Virus record (IMG/VR): IMGVR_UViG_3300028800_000219
Location: 1-35,509 of that record
DNA: 35,509 nt
Origin: a virus
Direction: 5' to 3' (one strand)
Part shown: one piece after another, positions 4,593-9,745 of the stretch
Position numbering within the stretch: the stretch's first letter is position 1
Layout of the letters: each line of letters starts with the position of its first letter
Program-made: the position numbers and the translations under genes
The notes under the pieces: generated by a model
What the model saw: the letters and a program-made list of their open reading frames with translations, nothing else
Told to the model about the DNA's origin: nothing
Database searches by the model: none

Positions 4593-6113
4593 GTGTGGGC
4601 CACGTGCTGGCAGAGCATGACGTGGCTGTCGAACGTGCTCGCCTCCGGCACCACGAGCGTGTTCGCGATAGATGATCCCGTGGAGACCGTCTTCACCACC
4701 CTGGTGAATAGCGTGTCCGCCGTGGACGCGTGGCAGGCAGGAACCCTGCTGTCGCTCGAGGCTCAGGCGCTCAAGTCCCTGCAGAACTTCCTGGCGCTAC
4801 AGCCGTTCCCCCTGGTCCCGTCGTACTTCGACGTCGTCACGCAGGCGTATTTTGACACGCGCGTGGCGTCGGTGGCGGCTGCCGCCAGCGGCATATCGAC
4901 GCTGCCCGTTGCCGTCAATCCAATCCAGGCGGCCACGCTTCTGGCGCAGGGATCGCCCGCCGTGCCCGATCCCGGTTACGTCGAATGGTGCATGACGTTC
5001 CAGGGCGAAACTCCGCCGGTCGGCGCCGAACTTCCGGCCGCCGCCGCGACGGCAGCACAGTCGTGGCTCAACATAACCAACGCGGTGGCCGTACTGCAGG
5101 GCAGCGCCTTGACACAGATATACGACACGGCGGCAAGGCAATATCGGTGCTCGACCGTCGTCGCGAACACCATCGCCAACCTTAAATCCGGCGGGTTCGG
5201 CTGGACCCCCATATTCGCCACCGGTGAACCCTGGCAGACGGACGGCGCTGGCAACATCATCCTTGATGGTTCCGGAAACCCCATCCCGACCAGCGGCAAT
5301 ACGATAAGGCCTTTGCCGTGGAACTGGGCGGTGGCGCTTCCGACGATACTGCTGGACGCGTCGTCGCTCGCCTCCAATCCGGCGCTGCTGGTCAACCAGC
5401 AGTGCGCCGCGATACGCTATGCCCTGGTGCAGCAGATACTGTCGCTCGCCAAGCTTCTGCTGGCTCTGCGCATCCACAACATCGTGCAGCCGACGACTGC
5501 CACGCTACGCAACGGCGAGTCCCTGGCGGACCTGGCGGCGCGCACCAGCGGAAATTTTGAAAACTGGCCCGCTCTCGCTGCGCTCAACAGGATAGGACCT
5601 CCATATCCAGGCCCGACGAACAGGGCGGTAGCGTTGTCCGGACGCCAGTTGTTCACGTCGAACGGCGTAGCGACGCCCGGCGTGGAACCGGACCCGAACG
5701 ACAGTGGCGCCACATACGCGTCCAACGTGCTCGGCGTCGACTGGGACTGGGGGCCCATCAACGGACCGTCGCCGACGTGGACTGGCGACATAGTGACGAT
5801 CAACGGCTACGCCAACCTGGCGCGGTCGATCGGCCGCCGTCTGCAAACGCCGCTCGGCTCGCTGATCTATCATTCCGCCTACGGTTCCAGAATTCCGCCG
5901 GAGGTGGGCTCCGTGCAGTCTGCAGACGAGGCGGCACGACTGCGGGAATACGGCAATTCCGCGGTGCGCGCCGATCCCCGCACAGGATCCATTCTGCTGT
6001 CCGAGGCGACGACACAACCAGGTTCCCTGGCGACATACCGCGTCGTCATCAGCCCCATAGGCCCCGGGGCAATACCGGTCGAGGTCAACGCCACGATCGG
6101 CGCTACGCCGTAA
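4593..6113 (+). CDS. LysM plus gp25/W-like baseplate wedge protein
   Basis: 506 residues from GTG 4593. Domains in order: a helical N-terminal part; a middle part around the sequence LDGSGNPIPTSGNTIRPLPW; a LysM-like module at about residues 303-335 (TLRNGESLADLAARTSGNF ... WPALAALN); and a C-terminal gp25/W-like domain at about 375-490 (WTGDIVTINGYANLARSIGR, LQTPLGSLIYHSAYGS, ending in an RVVISPIG strand). gp25 of T4 and W of P2 are baseplate wedge proteins that start sheath assembly. The frame stays open upstream to TAG 4548, and a better ribosome site (TAGGAGAG) precedes an ATC at 4560, so the protein may begin about 11 residues earlier. It overlaps the convergent HNH gene by 11 bp. Confidence 0.8.
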   Translation: MWATCWQSMTWLSNVLASGTTSVFAIDDPVETVFTTLVNSVSAVDAWQAGTLLSLEAQALKSLQNFLALQPFPLVPSYFDVVTQAYFDTRVASVAAAASGISTLPVAVNPIQAATLLAQGSPAVPDPGYVEWCMTFQGETPPVGAELPAAAATAAQSWLNITNAVAVLQGSALTQIYDTAARQYRCSTVVANTIANLKSGGFGWTPIFATGEPWQTDGAGNIILDGSGNPIPTSGNTIRPLPWNWAVALPTILLDASSLASNPALLVNQQCAAIRYALVQQILSLAKLLLALRIHNIVQPTTATLRNGESLADLAARTSGNFENWPALAALNRIGPPYPGPTNRAVALSGRQLFTSNGVATPGVEPDPNDSGATYASNVLGVDWDWGPINGPSPTWTGDIVTINGYANLARSIGRRLQTPLGSLIYHSAYGSRIPPEVGSVQSADEAARLREYGNSAVRADPRTGSILLSEATTQPGSLATYRVVISPIGPGAIPVEVNATIGATP

Positions 6114-6693
6114 GCTCCGACGACCAATACAGCCACGACCGAAAGTCATCACGGATCTGAGGGTCCAGGAACCGCAGGCCGGCACGCAGCAGTTCGGCCG
6201 TTGTTGGCTGCCGCGGCGGTTTCAACGGCCGCATGCCGCCTCCCTTCTTCCCAGACCATTCAGCCGGATGATCGCGCTTCCGCTTGTTGCAATCGACGCA
6301 GGCGGACAGGATGTTGCTCCATTCCGTCTTGCCTCCGGCGGCGCGTGGAATCACATGGTCAAACGTCAGATCCTTCGATTCAAATTCCTCACCGCAGTAC
6401 TGACAGCGGTAACCGTCGCGCAGCAGGATCGACCGACGGCAGAACTTCGGCTGAGCCGAGATCGGCGCATAGGTGCGCAGCGCGATCACCTTCGGAATCG
6501 GCAACTTTATCGACGGTGAATGGAAGAACGCGTCGTCCCACGTCTCGACCACGGCAGCGCGATCGCGCCACACCGTCGATACGGCATCCTCGGCCGACAC
6601 GACAGAAAGCGGCCATGTCGAAAGAGGACGATAATCGGCGTTCAGGACAAGCGTGCGGTACGATCTTCGCTCGCGGACGGTAGCAGCGATCAT
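6103..6693 (-). CDS. HNH endonuclease
   Basis: 196 residues from ATG 6693, with GAGGG upstream. It contains an HNH nuclease core: CQYCG ... LTFDHVIPRAAGGKTEWSNI ... ACVDCNKRK. The two CxxC pairs bind structural zinc, and the DH pair with the downstream Asn supplies the catalytic metal site. The N-terminal part (TLVLNADYRPLSTWPLS) is typical of a widespread stand-alone HNH family in phages and bacteria. It sits at the downstream end of the tRNA array, only 14 bp from the last tRNA, and its 3' end overlaps the convergent baseplate gene. Likely a homing-type nuclease that moved together with the tRNA block; a packaging or defence role cannot be excluded. Confidence 0.9.
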   Translation of the reverse strand: MIAATVRERRSYRTLVLNADYRPLSTWPLSVVSAEDAVSTVWRDRAAVVETWDDAFFHSPSIKLPIPKVIALRTYAPISAQPKFCRRSILLRDGYRCQYCGEEFESKDLTFDHVIPRAAGGKTEWSNILSACVDCNKRKRDHPAEWSGKKGGGMRPLKPPRQPTTAELLRAGLRFLDPQIRDDFRSWLYWSSELTA

Positions 6694-6707
6694 GACACCC
6701 TCTATGT

Positions 6708-6782
6708 TGGAGCTCCTGCGAGGAATTGAACCCCGGTCTCGCCGGTACGAACGGCGCGCAATGGCCACTATACGACAAGAGC
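6708..6782 (-). tRNA. tRNA-Thr (CGT)
   Basis: Acceptor GCTCTTG pairs with CAGGAGC; anticodon stem CGCCG/CGGCG closes the loop TTCGTAC (anticodon CGT, reads ACG). T arm CGGGG-TTCAATT-CCTCG. Discriminator T, encoded CCA. Last gene of the array, just upstream of the HNH gene. Confidence 0.9.
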
Positions 6783-6783
6783 A

Positions 6784-6862
6784 TGGAGGACCACCTGGGA
6801 ATCGAACCCAGCAGGAAACGGGTTAAGAAGCCGTCGCACACACCAGTGAGTGCATGTGGTCC
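6784..6862 (-). tRNA. tRNA-Lys (CTT)
   Basis: Acceptor GGACCAC/GTGGTCC; loop TTCTTAA gives anticodon CTT (AAG). One C-C mismatch closes the anticodon stem. Encoded CCA with discriminator T. A second Lys tRNA (TTT) lies at 7728. Confidence 0.9.
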
Positions 6863-6865
6863 ATT

Positions 6866-6942
6866 TGGTACGCGACCTCGGATTCGAACCGAGAAAACTC
6901 CCCGTCTTGAGCGGGGCGACTTTACCATTTGCCCAGTCGCGC
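6866..6942 (-). tRNA. tRNA with Leu anticodon CAA, short variable loop
   Basis: Acceptor GCGCGAC/GTCGCGT (G1-U72 wobble), anticodon stem CCCCG/CGGGG, loop CTCAAGA, anticodon CAA (UUG), A73, encoded CCA. The variable region is only AGTTTT, whereas bacterial tRNA-Leu normally has a long variable arm. The body is nearly the same as that of the CAG tRNA at 8348, so the two probably arose by duplication. Isotype by anticodon only. Confidence 0.85.
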
Positions 6943-6945
6943 GTC

Positions 6946-7018
6946 TGGCGCTCTCGGGGCGAGTCGAACGCCCATCCCGCCGGTTCGGAGCCGGTGGTGC
7001 TGATCCGCAGCCGAGAGC
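6946..7018 (-). tRNA. tRNA-Arg (CCG)
   Basis: Acceptor GCTCTCG/CGAGAGC; loop CTCCGAA gives anticodon CCG (CGG). Discriminator G, encoded CCA. One of four Arg tRNAs in the array. Confidence 0.9.
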
Positions 7019-7021
7019 ATC

Positions 7022-7092
7022 TGGTGGCCCATGCAGGAATCGAACCCGCCGTCCTTGGCTTAGAACGCCTAGCCTGTCCCAGCAGATGGGCC
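7022..7092 (-). tRNA. tRNA-Arg (TCT)
   Basis: Acceptor GGCCCAT/ATGGGCC; loop GTTCTAA gives anticodon TCT (AGA). The anticodon stem has one mismatch. A73 and encoded CCA. Short, 71 nt. Confidence 0.85.
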
Positions 7093-7096
7093 GATA

Positions 7097-7169
7097 TGGC
7101 GCCCCGCCGCCGAGTCGAACGGCGCGTTCCGGTTTCGTAGACCAGACTCCGAATTCCGTCGGGCGGGGC
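7097..7169 (-). tRNA. tRNA-Arg (ACG)
   Basis: Acceptor GCCCCGC/GCGGGGC; anticodon stem CTGGT/ACCGG around loop CTACGAA; anticodon ACG, presumably deaminated to ICG to read CGU/CGC/CGA. Discriminator G, encoded CCA. Confidence 0.9.
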
Positions 7170-7173
7170 AAGC

Positions 7174-7248
7174 TGGTGCCGCGTACGGGTATCGAACCCG
7201 TCTCACCGCTTTGAAAGAGCGGCCGCCTCACCTGAAGCGTAACGCGGC
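7174..7248 (-). tRNA. tRNA-Glu (TTC)
   Basis: Acceptor GCCGCGT/ACGCGGC; stem CCGCT/AGCGG around loop CTTTCAA; anticodon TTC (GAA/GAG). A73, encoded CCA. A second Glu tRNA (CTC) lies at 8590. Confidence 0.92.
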
Positions 7249-7252
7249 GAAC

Positions 7253-7328
7253 TGGTGGAGCTTGTGGGACTCGAACCCACGGTCTCCTGCATGCCGAGCA
7301 GGTGATCTTGCCACTGATCTAAAGCCCC
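7253..7328 (-). tRNA. tRNA-Ala (GGC), C33 variant
   Basis: Acceptor GGGGCTT/AAGCTCC with the G3-U70 pair that marks Ala. Perfect stem CCTGC/GCAGG around loop TCGGCAT: anticodon GGC (GCC). Position 33 is C, not the near-invariant U. A73, encoded CCA. Confidence 0.92.
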
Positions 7329-7332
7329 GAGA

Positions 7333-7409
7333 TGGTACGCGCCCAGAGGATCGAACTCTGCTCTATCCAGTTTGTAGGACTGGTGCCATCCCCAGATGAC
7401 TAGGCGCGC
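7333..7409 (-). tRNA. tRNA-Val (TAC), C33 variant
   Basis: Acceptor GCGCGCC/GGCGCGT (G1-U72). Stem CCAGT/ACTGG around loop CCTACAA; anticodon TAC (GUA). C replaces U33. A73, encoded CCA. The only Val tRNA found. Confidence 0.9.
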
Positions 7410-7413
7410 AAAA

Positions 7414-7489
7414 TGGTGCGGGTGACAGGATTCGAACCTGCGGTCTCCTGATCCCAAATCAGGCGCCTTGGCCACTAGGCTACACCCAC
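7414..7489 (-). tRNA. tRNA-Pro (TGG)
   Basis: Acceptor GTGGGTG/CACCCGC; stem CCTGA/TCAGG around loop TTTGGGA; anticodon TGG (CCA). A73, encoded CCA. Confidence 0.92.
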
Positions 7490-7493
7490 GTTC

Positions 7494-7564
7494 TGGCTCC
7501 CCCGGTCTGAATCGAACAGACATTCCTCGGCTTAGGACGCCAGGGCCGCTCCATCGGCGGGGGA
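7494..7564 (-). tRNA. tRNA-Arg (CCT)
   Basis: Acceptor TCCCCCG/CGGGGGA; loop GTCCTAA gives anticodon CCT (AGG). Discriminator G, encoded CCA. Short, 71 nt. Confidence 0.88.
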
Positions 7565-7568
7565 AAGT

Positions 7569-7646
7569 TGGTCAGGGTGGCGTGATTCGAACACGCGGTC
7601 TCTCGGTTCCGAACCGAGCGCTCTGGCCAGACTGAGCTACACCCTG
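7569..7646 (-). tRNA. tRNA-Pro (CGG)
   Basis: Acceptor CAGGGTG/CACCCTG (C1-G72, usual for Pro); stem CTCGG/CCGAG around loop TTCGGAA; anticodon CGG (CCG). A73, encoded CCA. Confidence 0.93.
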
Positions 7647-7647
7647 A

Positions 7648-7723
7648 TGGCGCCCGTGACGGGGATTGAACCCGCCAGCAATCGCGTGACAAGCGATGAC
7701 CCCCACCAGGGAGAATCACGGGC
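7648..7723 (-). tRNA. tRNA-Asp (GTC)
   Basis: Acceptor GCCCGTG/CACGGGC; stem ATCGC/GCGAT around loop TTGTCAC; anticodon GTC. G73 as required by AspRS; encoded CCA. Confidence 0.93.
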
Positions 7724-7727
7724 AAAT

Positions 7728-7805
7728 TGGAGGACCGGGAGGGGATCGAACCCATCCTATCTGTCGTTTAAAAGACGACTGCCCACACCAGCAGGCCACC
7801 GGTCC
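7728..7805 (-). tRNA. tRNA-Lys (TTT)
   Basis: Acceptor GGACCGG/CCGGTCC; stem GTCGT/ACGAC around loop CTTTTAA; anticodon TTT (AAA/AAG). Discriminator T, encoded CCA. Confidence 0.93.
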
Positions 7806-7813
7806 ATTTAATT

Positions 7814-7889
7814 CGGTACTTCCGGCTGGACTCGAACCAGCGATTTCTCGGTTATCGGCCGAGCGTCCTTGCCGCTAGACGACGGAAGC
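7814..7889 (-). tRNA. tRNA-Ile (GAT), C33 variant, encoded CCG end
   Basis: Acceptor GCTTCCG/CGGAAGT; perfect stem CTCGG/CCGAG around loop CCGATAA; anticodon GAT (AUC/AUU). C replaces U33. After A73 the genome encodes CCG, not CCA, so the host nucleotidyltransferase would have to repair the end; the mature body is 7817-7889. Confidence 0.88.
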
Positions 7890-7895
7890 AAACTT

Positions 7896-7980
7896 TGGTG
7901 GGTGACGGTCGAGTCGAACAACTCCCCCGAAGGGATCGGTTTTACAGACCGCTTGATAGAACCGCTATCTTTCGCCACCC
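7896..7980 (-). tRNA. tRNA-Tyr (GTA)
   Basis: Class II tRNA with long variable arm (hairpin near TCCCTTCGGGGGA). Acceptor GGGTGGC/GTCACCC; loop CTGTAAA; anticodon GTA. A73, encoded CCA. It shows that the array does use proper class II bodies for Tyr. Confidence 0.92.
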
Positions 7981-7987
7981 GTGAAAC

Positions 7988-8061
7988 TGGTGCTCCCACC
8001 TGGTACTGACCCAGGATTTATCGCTTACCAAGCGATTGCCCTACCATTGGACGATAGGAGC
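7988..8061 (-). tRNA. tRNA-Thr (GGT)
   Basis: Acceptor GCTCCTA/TGGGAGC; stem ATCGC/GCGAT around loop TTGGTAA; anticodon GGT (ACC/ACU). The T loop is GTCAGTA rather than TTCRANY. A73, encoded CCA. Confidence 0.88.
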
Positions 8062-8062
8062 G

Positions 8063-8149
8063 TGGCGGATGGCGCTGTAATCGAAACAGACGCCTTGCGG
8101 CGCGCATCGCTTAGCAGGCGAGCCACGCAACCTTGCATGTTCACCATCC
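8063..8149 (-). tRNA. tRNA-Ser (GCT)
   Basis: Class II, 87 nt, with a long variable arm. Acceptor GGATGGT/GCCATCC; loop CTGCTAA; anticodon GCT (AGC/AGU). G73 as in Ser tRNAs, encoded CCA. Confidence 0.92.
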
Positions 8150-8156
8150 ATTTGGT

Positions 8157-8243
8157 TGGCGGAAGGCGGAGGAGTCCAACCCCAGACCTTTCGGTCCCCC
8201 CTGGTTTTCAGGACCAGTTGCCACGCACGTAGCGGCACCTTCC
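8157..8243 (-). tRNA. tRNA-Ser (TGA), C33 variant
   Basis: Class II, 87 nt. Acceptor GGAAGGT/GCCTTCC; stem CTGGT/ACCAG around loop CCTGAAA; anticodon TGA (UCA). Variable arm GGGACCGAAAGGTCT forms a hairpin. C replaces U33. G73, encoded CCA. Confidence 0.9.
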
Positions 8244-8347
8244 GTAATCTTTCGCGAGCCATGAGTGCATAGGCAAACCGCCAAACAGAACCTCCCTGTT
8301 CGTTTAAGTCGACCCCGTAGGCCGTCGACACGGTCTCCTATTCTAAC
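8244..8347. other. Spacer inside tRNA array
   Basis: A spacer of 104 bp, much longer than the usual 1-8 bp between these tRNAs. On the minus strand it holds AGGAG followed by a GTG frame (STAYGVDLNEQGGSVWRF...) that would run on into the Ser(TGA) gene; the overlap with a tRNA makes coding doubtful. I see no tRNA here. It may be the scar of a lost gene or a processing spacer. Confidence 0.4.
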
Positions 8348-8424
8348 TGGTGCGCGACCCCGGACTCGAACCGGGAAAACTCTTCCTTCTGAGGGAAGCG
8401 ACTTTTCCATTTGCCCAGTCGCGC
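8348..8424 (-). tRNA. tRNA with Leu anticodon CAG, short variable loop
   Basis: Acceptor GCGCGAC/GTCGCGC; anticodon stem CTTCC/GGAAG around loop CTCAGAA; anticodon CAG (CUG). Variable region AGTTTT, only six bases. A73, encoded CCA. Shares most of its body with the CAA tRNA at 6866. Confidence 0.87.
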
Positions 8425-8431
8425 ATTTACG

Positions 8432-8507
8432 TGGTGCATGCGGCGAGACTCGAACTCGCACTTGACGGCTTCTCGAACCGCTGACTCTGCCATTGGCCTA
8501 CGCATGC
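8432..8507 (-). tRNA. tRNA with Leu anticodon GAG, short variable loop, C33
   Basis: Acceptor GCATGCG/CGCATGC; stem GCGGT/GCCGT around loop TCGAGAA; anticodon GAG (CUC/CUU). Variable region CAAGT. C replaces U33. A73, encoded CCA. An alternative register giving CGA (Ser) has a much worse stem. Confidence 0.8.
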
Positions 8508-8508
8508 A

Positions 8509-8585
8509 TGGTGCGCGCCGCCGGATTCGAACCGACACCTTGACGGGGTTTAAGCCCGCTGCCTCTGCCATTGGGCTACGCGCGC
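8509..8585 (-). tRNA. tRNA with Leu anticodon TAA, short variable loop
   Basis: Acceptor GCGCGCG/GGCGCGC (last pair mismatched); stem GCGGG/CCCGT around loop CTTAAAC; anticodon TAA (UUA/UUG). Variable region CAAGGT. A73, encoded CCA. D arm closely resembles that of the GAG tRNA next to it. Confidence 0.87.
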
Positions 8586-8589
8586 AATA

Positions 8590-8664
8590 TGGTGGCCCAT
8601 GGGGGTAACGATCCCCCACCTCCCGCTTGAGAGGCGGGTGCCCAGACCTCTAGGCGAATGGGCC
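8590..8664 (-). tRNA. tRNA-Glu (CTC)
   Basis: Acceptor GGCCCAT/ATGGGCC; stem CCCGC/GCGGG around loop CTCTCAA; anticodon CTC (GAG). T loop ATCGTTA departs from TTCRANY. A73, encoded CCA. Confidence 0.88.
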
Positions 8665-8668
8665 GAAC

Positions 8669-8740
8669 TGGCAGCGGGCGTCGGTGTCGATCCGACCGCG
8701 GCAAGCTTCAAAGGCTCGCCTGTGCGCCGGCACTCCCGCG
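8669..8740 (-). tRNA. tRNA-Gln (TTG)
   Basis: Stem CGAGC/GCTTG around loop CTTTGAA; anticodon TTG (CAA). The 1-72 position is unpaired (C-U) and position 73 is G, both recognised features for GlnRS. T loop ATCGACA is non-standard. Encoded CCA. Divergent enough that standard scanners may score it low. Confidence 0.75.
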
Positions 8741-8744
8741 AAAC

Positions 8745-8817
8745 TGGCACCGGCCGAGAGTGCCGCCCTCTCTCCGTCGAGCTTCAGAGGCTCGCGTGCG
8801 CGCTGGCGCTGACCGGA
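8745..8817 (-). tRNA. tRNA-Gln (CTG)
   Basis: Perfect stem CGAGC/GCTCG around loop CTCTGAA; anticodon CTG (CAG). U1-U72 mismatch and G73, as expected for Gln. T stem GAGAG/CTCTC encloses the unusual loop GGCGGCA. Encoded CCA. Its anticodon arm is close to that of the TTG gene beside it. Confidence 0.75.
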
Positions 8818-8823
8818 TCAAAA

Positions 8824-8898
8824 TGGTGCCCGCAGGATGGGATCGAACCTCCGTCCACCGCTTACAAGGCGGTGATCCTGCCACTGAACGATGCGGGC
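8824..8898 (-). tRNA. tRNA-Thr (TGT)
   Basis: Acceptor GCCCGCA/TGCGGGC; stem ACCGC/GCGGT around loop CTTGTAA; anticodon TGT (ACA). A73, encoded CCA. Third Thr isoacceptor. Confidence 0.93.
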
Positions 8899-8900
8899 AT

Positions 8901-8976
8901 TGGGGTGATCGGAGAGGATTGAACTCTCACATTTTCGGTCACAGCGAAACGTGCAGACCACTACACCACGACCACC
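8901..8976 (-). tRNA. tRNA-His (GTG)
   Basis: Stem TTTCG/CGAAA around loop CTGTGAC; anticodon GTG. The acceptor stem carries the extra G-1 paired with C73 that defines tRNA-His, followed by encoded CCA. T arm GAGAG-TTCAATC-CTCTC. Confidence 0.92.
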
Positions 8977-8977
8977 A

Positions 8978-9037
8978 TAAAAACACGGGGAGCCAGCTAC
9001 GGCTGACTGTTAACCCTTGATCCTCAGATCAAGCCCC
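8978..9037 (-). ncRNA. Candidate structured RNA between tRNAs
   Basis: On the minus strand this spacer folds by eye into a three-way junction: outer stem GGGG/CCCC, hairpin CTTGATC-TGAG-GATCAAG, hairpin AGCC-GTAGCT-GGCT, then GTG and a run of five T. It is not a tRNA. It could be a small RNA, a processing signal or an attenuator within the tRNA transcript. Structure is seen in the sequence; function is inference. Confidence 0.35.
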
Positions 9038-9041
9038 ATCG

Positions 9042-9117
9042 TGGAGAAGCGCCGCAGAGTTGAACTGCGTGATGCGATTTTGCAGACCGCCACCCAAAGC
9101 CCTCGGGTTCGCGCTTC
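9042..9117 (-). tRNA. tRNA-Cys (GCA)
   Basis: Acceptor GAAGCGC/GCGCTTC; stem GCGGT/ATCGC around loop CTGCAAA; anticodon GCA. U73 as needed for CysRS; encoded CCA. Confidence 0.92.
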
Positions 9118-9121
9118 AATA

Positions 9122-9195
9122 TGGCAGGAGTGGAAAGAGTTGAACTCTCGCCTGCGGATTTGGAGGCCGCCGTGCTACCGTAACACTTCACTCCC
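9122..9195 (-). tRNA. tRNA-Trp (CCA)
   Basis: Acceptor GGGAGTG/CACTCCT; loop CTCCAAA; anticodon CCA. G73 as usual for Trp; encoded CCA. One mismatch in the anticodon stem. Confidence 0.9.
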
Positions 9196-9199
9196 AAAC

Positions 9200-9276
9200 T
9201 GGCTCCTCACCCAGGTACCGCCCCTGGCAAACTTCGCTTAACAGGCGAGTCCGTTCGCTTGCTCGGATCGTGAGGA
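9200..9276 (-). tRNA. tRNA-Asn (GTT)
   Basis: Acceptor TCCTCAC/GTGAGGA (U1-A72, G73, as in bacterial Asn); loop CTGTTAA; anticodon GTT. T stem CCAGG/CCTGG encloses the non-standard loop GGCGGTA, like the Gln(CTG) gene. Encoded CCA. Confidence 0.87.
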
Positions 9277-9277
9277 A

Positions 9278-9352
9278 TGGAGCGGCATACGGGGATCGAA
9301 CCCGTCTTCAGAGCTTGGAAGGCTCGTCGTCTCCCCAGAGACGGAATGCCGC
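9278..9352 (-). tRNA. tRNA-Gly (TCC)
   Basis: Acceptor GCGGCAT/ATGCCGC; loop CTTCCAA; anticodon TCC (GGA/GGG). U73, usual for Gly; encoded CCA. Confidence 0.92.
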
Positions 9353-9356
9353 AAAC

Positions 9357-9432
9357 TGGTGCCCGAACTTCGCGTCGAACGAAGACCTCCTGCTCTTCAG
9401 ACAGGCGTGCAGGCCAGCTACACCACCCGGGC
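9357..9432 (-). tRNA. tRNA-Phe (GAA)
   Basis: Acceptor GCCCGGG/TTCGGGC with two G-U pairs; stem CCTGT/GCAGG around loop CTGAAGA; anticodon GAA. A73, encoded CCA. Confidence 0.92.
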
Positions 9433-9434
9433 AT

Positions 9435-9507
9435 TGGTTGCGGGAGACGGAATCGAACCGTCAAGCGCACGGTTATGAGCCGGCGCGGGCACCCTGTCCT
9501 TCCCGCA
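9435..9507 (-). tRNA. tRNA (CAT), initiator-like acceptor stem
   Basis: Acceptor TGCGGGA/TCCCGCA, A73, encoded CCA; loop CTCATAA; anticodon CAT. The GCGGG...CCCGCA end recalls initiator tRNA, but position 1-72 is a U-A pair instead of the C-A mismatch and the anticodon stem is weak and lacks three G-C pairs. Identity (initiator Met, elongator Met or lysidine-modified Ile) is open. Confidence 0.82.
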
Positions 9508-9510
9508 ACA

Positions 9511-9585
9511 TGGTGGACGTGCTTGGAATCGAACCAAGACCAATCAGTTATGAGCTGACAGCTCGAGCCGTCGAGCTACACGTCC
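9511..9585 (-). tRNA. tRNA (CAT), Met or Ile2
   Basis: Acceptor GGACGTG/CACGTCC; stem GTCAG/CTGAT around loop CTCATAA; anticodon CAT. A73, encoded CCA. The body resembles elongator Met and also the minor Ile tRNA that reads AUA after lysidine modification; sequence alone does not decide. Confidence 0.88.
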
Positions 9586-9594
9586 AGGCAAAAT

Positions 9595-9669
9595 TGGAGC
9601 GGCCATCGAGAGTCGAACTCAATGATTCACGTTGGCAACGTGACACGCAACCCGTCGCGTACTGGCCGC
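9595..9669 (-). tRNA. tRNA-Gly (GCC)
   Basis: Acceptor GCGGCCA/TGGCCGC; stem TCACG/CGTGA around loop TTGCCAA; anticodon GCC (GGC/GGU). U73, encoded CCA. Confidence 0.92.
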
Positions 9670-9672
9670 ATT

Positions 9673-9745
9673 CGGTGGAGTACCTCGGAATCGAACCGAG
9701 CTGCGCCGGTTTGCAGGACCAGCCCCCGTACCCAGCGGGTACCCC
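9673..9745 (-). tRNA. tRNA-Ala (TGC), C33 variant, encoded CCG end
   Basis: First gene of the array. Acceptor GGGGTAC/GTACTCC with G3-U70 (Ala identity); stem CTGGT/ACCGG around loop CCTGCAA; anticodon TGC (GCA). C replaces U33. After A73 the genome reads CCG rather than CCA. Confidence 0.9.

Follow-up and report, generated by a model that had tools for sequence, protein, structure and literature searches.

Four tRNA genes with leucine anticodons in a viral tRNA array lack the long variable arm and probably keep leucyl-tRNA synthetase identity

The IMG/VR virus record IMGVR_UViG_3300028800_000219 (35.5 kb; positions 1 to 35,509, the whole stretch analysed here and hereafter called the window) carries baseplate, sheath and head genes of the myovirus type and an array of transfer RNA (tRNA) genes, four of which have leucine anticodons (CAA, CAG, GAG and TAA) and no long variable arm (Table 1). 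On the basis of their sequences, we consider it highly probable that these four genes encode arm-less leucine tRNAs that keep the nucleotides read by leucyl-tRNA synthetase (LeuRS), are charged by LeuRS and serve in ordinary decoding.

All four genes were called by both ARAGORN and the Rfam tRNA model (46.7–51.8 bits, cut-off 29), and their variable regions are 5–6 nucleotides (nt) long, as the initial annotation had stated. It was also right that A73 is present in all four and that the serine and tyrosine genes of the same array, namely tRNA-Ser(GCT), tRNA-Ser(TGA) and tRNA-Tyr(GTA), are long-armed, and the 3-pair D stem that it had described at least for the CAA gene was found, together with the 20a insert, in all four. 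CCA is encoded in each of them. Only 5–6 nt separate the anticodon stem from the T stem, into which a long arm does not fit, and all four genes fall short of the canonical class II variable arm of at least 10 nt. Re-folding, by which a hidden long arm might have been revealed, produced none: RNAfold, which considers neither modifications nor tertiary contacts, gave a cloverleaf with a short variable region for the CAA gene, a near-cloverleaf for the GAG gene and folds other than the cloverleaf for the CAG and TAA genes, and supported a long arm for none of them. In the GAG gene, C33 replaces the nearly universal U33 within an atypical anticodon loop (UCGAGAA), where the GAG gene of the related phage described below has U33. 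In the TAA gene, positions 7 and 66 are mismatched (G7:G66); neither this nor C33 had been mentioned in the initial annotation.

In Escherichia coli, LeuRS requires A73, A15-U48, G18G19 and A20a, whereas the anticodon and the long arm are dispensable, and tRNA-Leu from which the anticodon arm and the long arm have been removed stays active (PMC9976931); A14 is listed with reference to mitochondria, "as for E. coli" (PMC9976931). We scored A73, A14, A15-U48, G18G19 and A20a as a LeuRS determinant set and found it complete in 4/4 leucine genes of the window and in 0/18 of the other window tRNAs that were scored. Among all fetched loci the set was complete in 332 of 359 short leucine, 79 of 90 long leucine and 8 of 1543 non-leucine tRNAs. 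Since many of these loci had been picked by a motif that itself holds several bases of the set, the count was repeated on loci fetched by a generic T-arm pattern only. In this generic viral sample, where A73 in the matched gene is mildly favoured by the pattern and variable-region length and isotype are unselected, the full set was present in 40 of 47 short leucine, 42 of 48 long leucine and 3 of 675 non-leucine tRNAs. With a leucine anticodon (NAG or YAA), a variable region of 4–7 nt, the LeuRS set and A73, all four window genes qualify for the short-armed leucine class of actinobacteria and phages. These tRNAs would thus have lost the long variable arm while keeping A73 and the rest of the set, and the host LeuRS would be expected to charge them with leucine, since the bacterial enzyme, as studied in E. 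coli, needs neither arm nor anticodon (PMC9976931). They would then decode CUG, CUC/CUU, UUG and UUA normally.

A cellular precedent supports this reading. At least 119 GTDB stretches, the majority from Actinomycetota, contain the same body as the window TAA gene. Mycolicibacterium moriokaense (46 tRNAs found) and Corynebacterium yonathiae (50 found) each have one tRNA-Leu(TAA) and one tRNA-Leu(CAA), both with a variable region of 5 nt, beside which no further tRNA for UUA or UUG was found, while their CAG, GAG and TAG leucine tRNAs are long-armed. Because no other UUA-reading tRNA was among those found in the two genomes, the short tRNA-Leu must deliver leucine in these actinobacteria. By a strict pattern, short tRNA-Leu(UAA) was detected in 21 of 100 sampled Actinomycetota genomes, which is a lower bound, with 1 match for a reversed-pattern control; outside the sampled phylum 5 of 6 genomes had a match, but these had been chosen from pattern matches and so give no rate. 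The actinobacterial chromosomal Leu(UAA) and Leu(CAA) tRNAs have the same A73, A14, A15-U48, G18G19 and A20a as the window genes and share their D-arm body with the window TAA gene. They differ in that the short actinobacterial forms are mainly UAA and CAA, whereas the window adds short CAG and GAG genes (long-armed in both genomes examined), and in that the window CAA and CAG bodies are unlike the actinobacterial short body. Animal mitochondrial tRNA-Leu also lacks the long arm and is charged by LeuRS, but with an organellar enzyme and a degenerate tRNA structure.

The premise of the initial annotation that bacterial tRNA-Leu is class II with a long arm therefore does not hold generally, given the short-armed sole Leu(UAA) and Leu(CAA) tRNAs found in these two actinobacteria and the short arms of about half of the viral leucine tRNAs. 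A recent review states a long arm for all tRNA-Leu outside animal mitochondria (PMC9976931), and these actinobacterial and viral tRNAs contradict that universal statement. Searching the literature for short-armed bacterial tRNA-Leu turned up a passing mention only. A passage of PMC6582537 notes a short-loop tRNA-Leu(TAG) for Mycobacterium mucogenicum and for Mpho, a relative of it, within a tRNA cluster that holds an HNH endonuclease gene, as is found near the window array; as described there, the case differs in being a bacterial genome cluster and in its TAG anticodon. Short-armed leucine tRNAs are an already known kind, though an under-described one.

Among viruses, the generic sample contained short arms in 47 of 95 leucine, 0 of 49 serine and 0 of 24 tyrosine tRNAs. 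The search of other phages that the initial annotation had proposed turned up many named phages with short-armed leucine genes, including Wofford (Streptomyces), Pumpernickel (Microbacterium), DSS3P8 (Roseobacter), phiCB2047-B (Sulfitobacter), P318 (Thermobifida) and F86 (Vibrio), as well as several T4-like and T5-like phages. Genes of Wofford, Pumpernickel, DSS3P8, phiCB2047-B and F86 resemble those of the window in their leucine anticodons, variable regions of 5–7 nt, A73 and location in tRNA arrays, and the CAA genes of DSS3P8 and phiCB2047-B have a UGGGCAAA..GGUAAAG body in common with the window, whereas the sequences have diverged, the hosts differ, and DSS3P8 and Pumpernickel have long-armed leucine genes too. 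The initial annotation had held that its puzzle would dissolve if such phage genes were already common and charged normally; their commonness is observed directly, and normal charging is suggested by the sole-isoacceptor status of the actinobacterial tRNAs. In a tree of 149 leucine tRNAs from which the variable region and anticodon were removed (66 columns, most forks unresolved), 13 changes between long and short are needed and the starred branches force at least four, so that a single origin of the short arm, as judged from these sequences, does not fit. Arm loss would have recurred in leucine tRNAs and not in serine tRNAs because seryl-tRNA synthetase (SerRS) cannot do without the long arm (PMC9976931, PMC7609411); tyrosine tRNAs keep theirs too.

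Three further observations concern individual phages. P318 carries an unannotated short-armed tRNA-Leu(TAG) directly before its small terminase gene (L012:3008-3081). In Mycobacterium phage Beezoo and its kin (L010:947-1026), a stretch before tRNA-Trp resembles a short-armed leucine tRNA by BLAST, with no gene called there by the record or by ARAGORN. Phage T5 was set aside as a possible precedent backed by historical charging data, its leucine tRNA being 85 nt and long-armed.

The short arm is also conserved. A related phage (G005), whose capsid protein is 68% identical, has a tRNA array syntenic with that of the window and adjoining an ortholog (66% identity) of the window HNH gene. Its leucine genes TAA, GAG, CAG and CAA stand in the same order as in the window, all with variable regions of 5–6 nt and A73, and at ~70% identity (52–54 of 77 positions) their stems are still paired; the full LeuRS set is present in two of the four (CAG and CAA). 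As the same four short leucine genes occur in both syntenic arrays, the short arm is a conserved feature rather than a chance one and is older than the split of the two phages.

Several results weigh against leucine charging and normal decoding by all four tRNAs. Position-specific isotype models built without the anticodon loop and variable region, and trained on long leucine tRNAs, called the CAA gene Gln, the CAG gene Leu, and the GAG and TAA genes Tyr. However, the same models miscalled 87 of 115 cellular short leucine tRNAs, and for this reason such scoring is uninformative as a test of identity and the mismatch is not evidence of another one. After a short-leucine class built from cellular and generic viral sequences was added, a leucine class ranked first for all four, and cross-validation called 1 of 1431 non-leucine tRNAs leucine. 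The isotype scoring proposed by the initial annotation thus gave mixed calls with long-leucine models and a uniform leucine ranking once short ones were represented, with margins of ~4 (CAA), 11 (GAG) and 20 (TAA) log units, although that of the CAG gene was small (1.4). In the relative, the TAA gene is without parts of the D loop and the GAG gene has G15 and G48, so both deviate from the full LeuRS set. C33 of the GAG gene and the G7:G66 mismatch of the TAA gene suggest that these two window genes may be poor in function, and TTA makes up 4 of the 8220 codons in the main open reading frames, too few to judge UUA decoding. Capsid and sheath proteins are only ~24–27% identical to those of phages of Thermus and several proteobacteria, which gives no host assignment, and the host LeuRS may be more demanding than the E. 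coli enzyme. Separately, carriage of tRNA-Leu(UAA) despite such rarity of TTA argues that its role is not codon compensation.

The initial annotation had left two possibilities, minimised leucine tRNAs still charged by LeuRS or tRNAs charged with another amino acid; the former is well supported, and the latter found no support. We regard it as extremely improbable that the four tRNAs carry another amino acid and mistranslate or recode leucine codons during infection. Such mischarging would suit the class I shape of four tRNAs with leucine anticodons and the lack of a clear leucine call by long-leucine-trained models, and the YAA anticodons have A35, A36 and A73 in common with tRNA-Phe. Yet the LeuRS set is intact in every gene, cellular short leucine tRNAs reproduce the isotype mismatch, and the only UUA and UUG readers found in two actinobacteria belong to this class. 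The elements needed by SerRS and alanyl-tRNA synthetase are absent: SerRS needs a long arm and G73, where the four have short variable regions and A73 along with C2-G71, a listed SerRS antideterminant, and the alanyl-tRNA synthetase signal G3-U70 is replaced by G-C (CAA, CAG and TAA genes) or A-U (GAG gene) at positions 3-70. Most other synthetases read anticodon bases without a counterpart in leucine anticodons. Codon alignments argue in the same direction, as the phage leucine codons align to leucine in relatives and interchange among themselves. When 16 open reading frames, 8220 codons in all, were aligned with relatives, CTG, CTC and TTG were opposite leucine at frequencies of 0.62, 0.57 and 0.58, compared with an overall identity of 0.52, and TTG stood opposite CTG 24 times and TTG 13 times; rates were similar against the relative L452, which carries no tRNA gene on its 81-kb contig.

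Two other explanations concern why the arm is missing and whether the genes are used. Arm loss might be an adaptation that removes the cleavage or recognition site of defence nucleases acting on class II variable arms, an idea compatible with LeuRS charging and in keeping with the absence of the arm from about half of viral leucine tRNAs, the at least four state changes forced on the tree and the carriage of Leu(UAA) although UUA is nearly unused. It is nevertheless unlikely, since the reports on Septu and retron-Eco7 concern tRNA-Tyr and not tRNA-Leu, nothing here ties them to leucine, short leucine tRNAs on actinobacterial chromosomes make a phage-specific cause unneeded, and LeuRS tolerance plus drift account for the pattern. 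A shade less probable still is the broader proposal that phages repeatedly strip the arm from leucine tRNA, the class II isotype with an arm-indifferent synthetase, and so make it uncuttable by defences that cleave long arms. We likewise think it improbable that some or all of the four are decaying pseudogenes or decoys unused in translation. The C33 and G7:G66 deviations, the reduced D arms of several array neighbours and the deviating TAA gene of the relative would be in line with decay, but the order, short arms and paired stems of all four have been kept through ~30% sequence divergence, CCA is encoded, and the tRNA covariance scores lie well over the cut-off.

Returning to LeuRS-charged leucine tRNAs, the array around them is likely to serve as a near-complete tRNA supply during infection, for example when host tRNAs are degraded. 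Between its called genes, at 6943-9510, are tRNA-like genes uncalled by ARAGORN; in several of them the D arm is reduced or unusual. Both lysine tRNAs have U73, which is unusual for tRNA-Lys; in the relative the corresponding bases are C73 (CTT) and A73 (TTT). An HNH endonuclease gene adjoins the array, and HNH genes in or near tRNA clusters occur also in Wofford, F86, T5 and mycobacteria.

Table 1 Coordinates of the four leucine tRNA genes and of other features in and beside the array (V, variable region).
Feature	Position	Strand	Remarks
tRNA array with all four leucine genes	6708..9745	-	23 genes by ARAGORN, with more divergent tRNA-like genes between
tRNA-Leu(CAA)	6866..6942	-	V AGTTTT (6 nt); A73; CCA encoded; D arm UGGGCAAAUGGUAAAGUCG; G1-U72; full LeuRS set
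tRNA-Leu(CAG)	8348..8424	-	V AGTTTT (6 nt); A73; body same as CAA gene; full LeuRS set
tRNA-Leu(GAG)	8432..8507	-	V CAAGT (5 nt); A73; C33 for U33; full LeuRS set
tRNA-Leu(TAA)	8509..8585	-	V CAAGGT (6 nt); A73; body GUAGCCCAAUGGCAGAGGCA as in actinobacterial chromosomal tRNA-Leu(UAA)
tRNA-Tyr(GTA), comparator	~7896..7980	-	Long variable arm; sequence reading and CCA-anchored scan
tRNA-Ser(GCT), comparator	~8063..8149	-	Long variable arm; G73
tRNA-Ser(TGA), comparator	~8155..8243	-	Long variable arm; G73
tRNA-like, Arg CCG	~6943-7017		Uncalled
tRNA-like, Arg TCT	~7022-7092		Uncalled
tRNA-like, Arg CCT	~7494-7566		Uncalled
tRNA-like, Gln TTG and CTG	~8665-8822		Uncalled
tRNA-like, Cys GCA	9042-9117		Uncalled
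tRNA-like, Gly TCC	9278-9352		Uncalled
tRNA-Lys	6784-6862		U73
tRNA-Lys	7728-7805		U73
HNH endonuclease gene	6103-6768		

The above analyses suggest that training on long-armed leucine tRNAs, rather than recoding, may lie behind isotype-model mismatches in phage tRNAs, and short-armed leucine tRNAs such as these four offer natural substrates for testing the true requirements of LeuRS.
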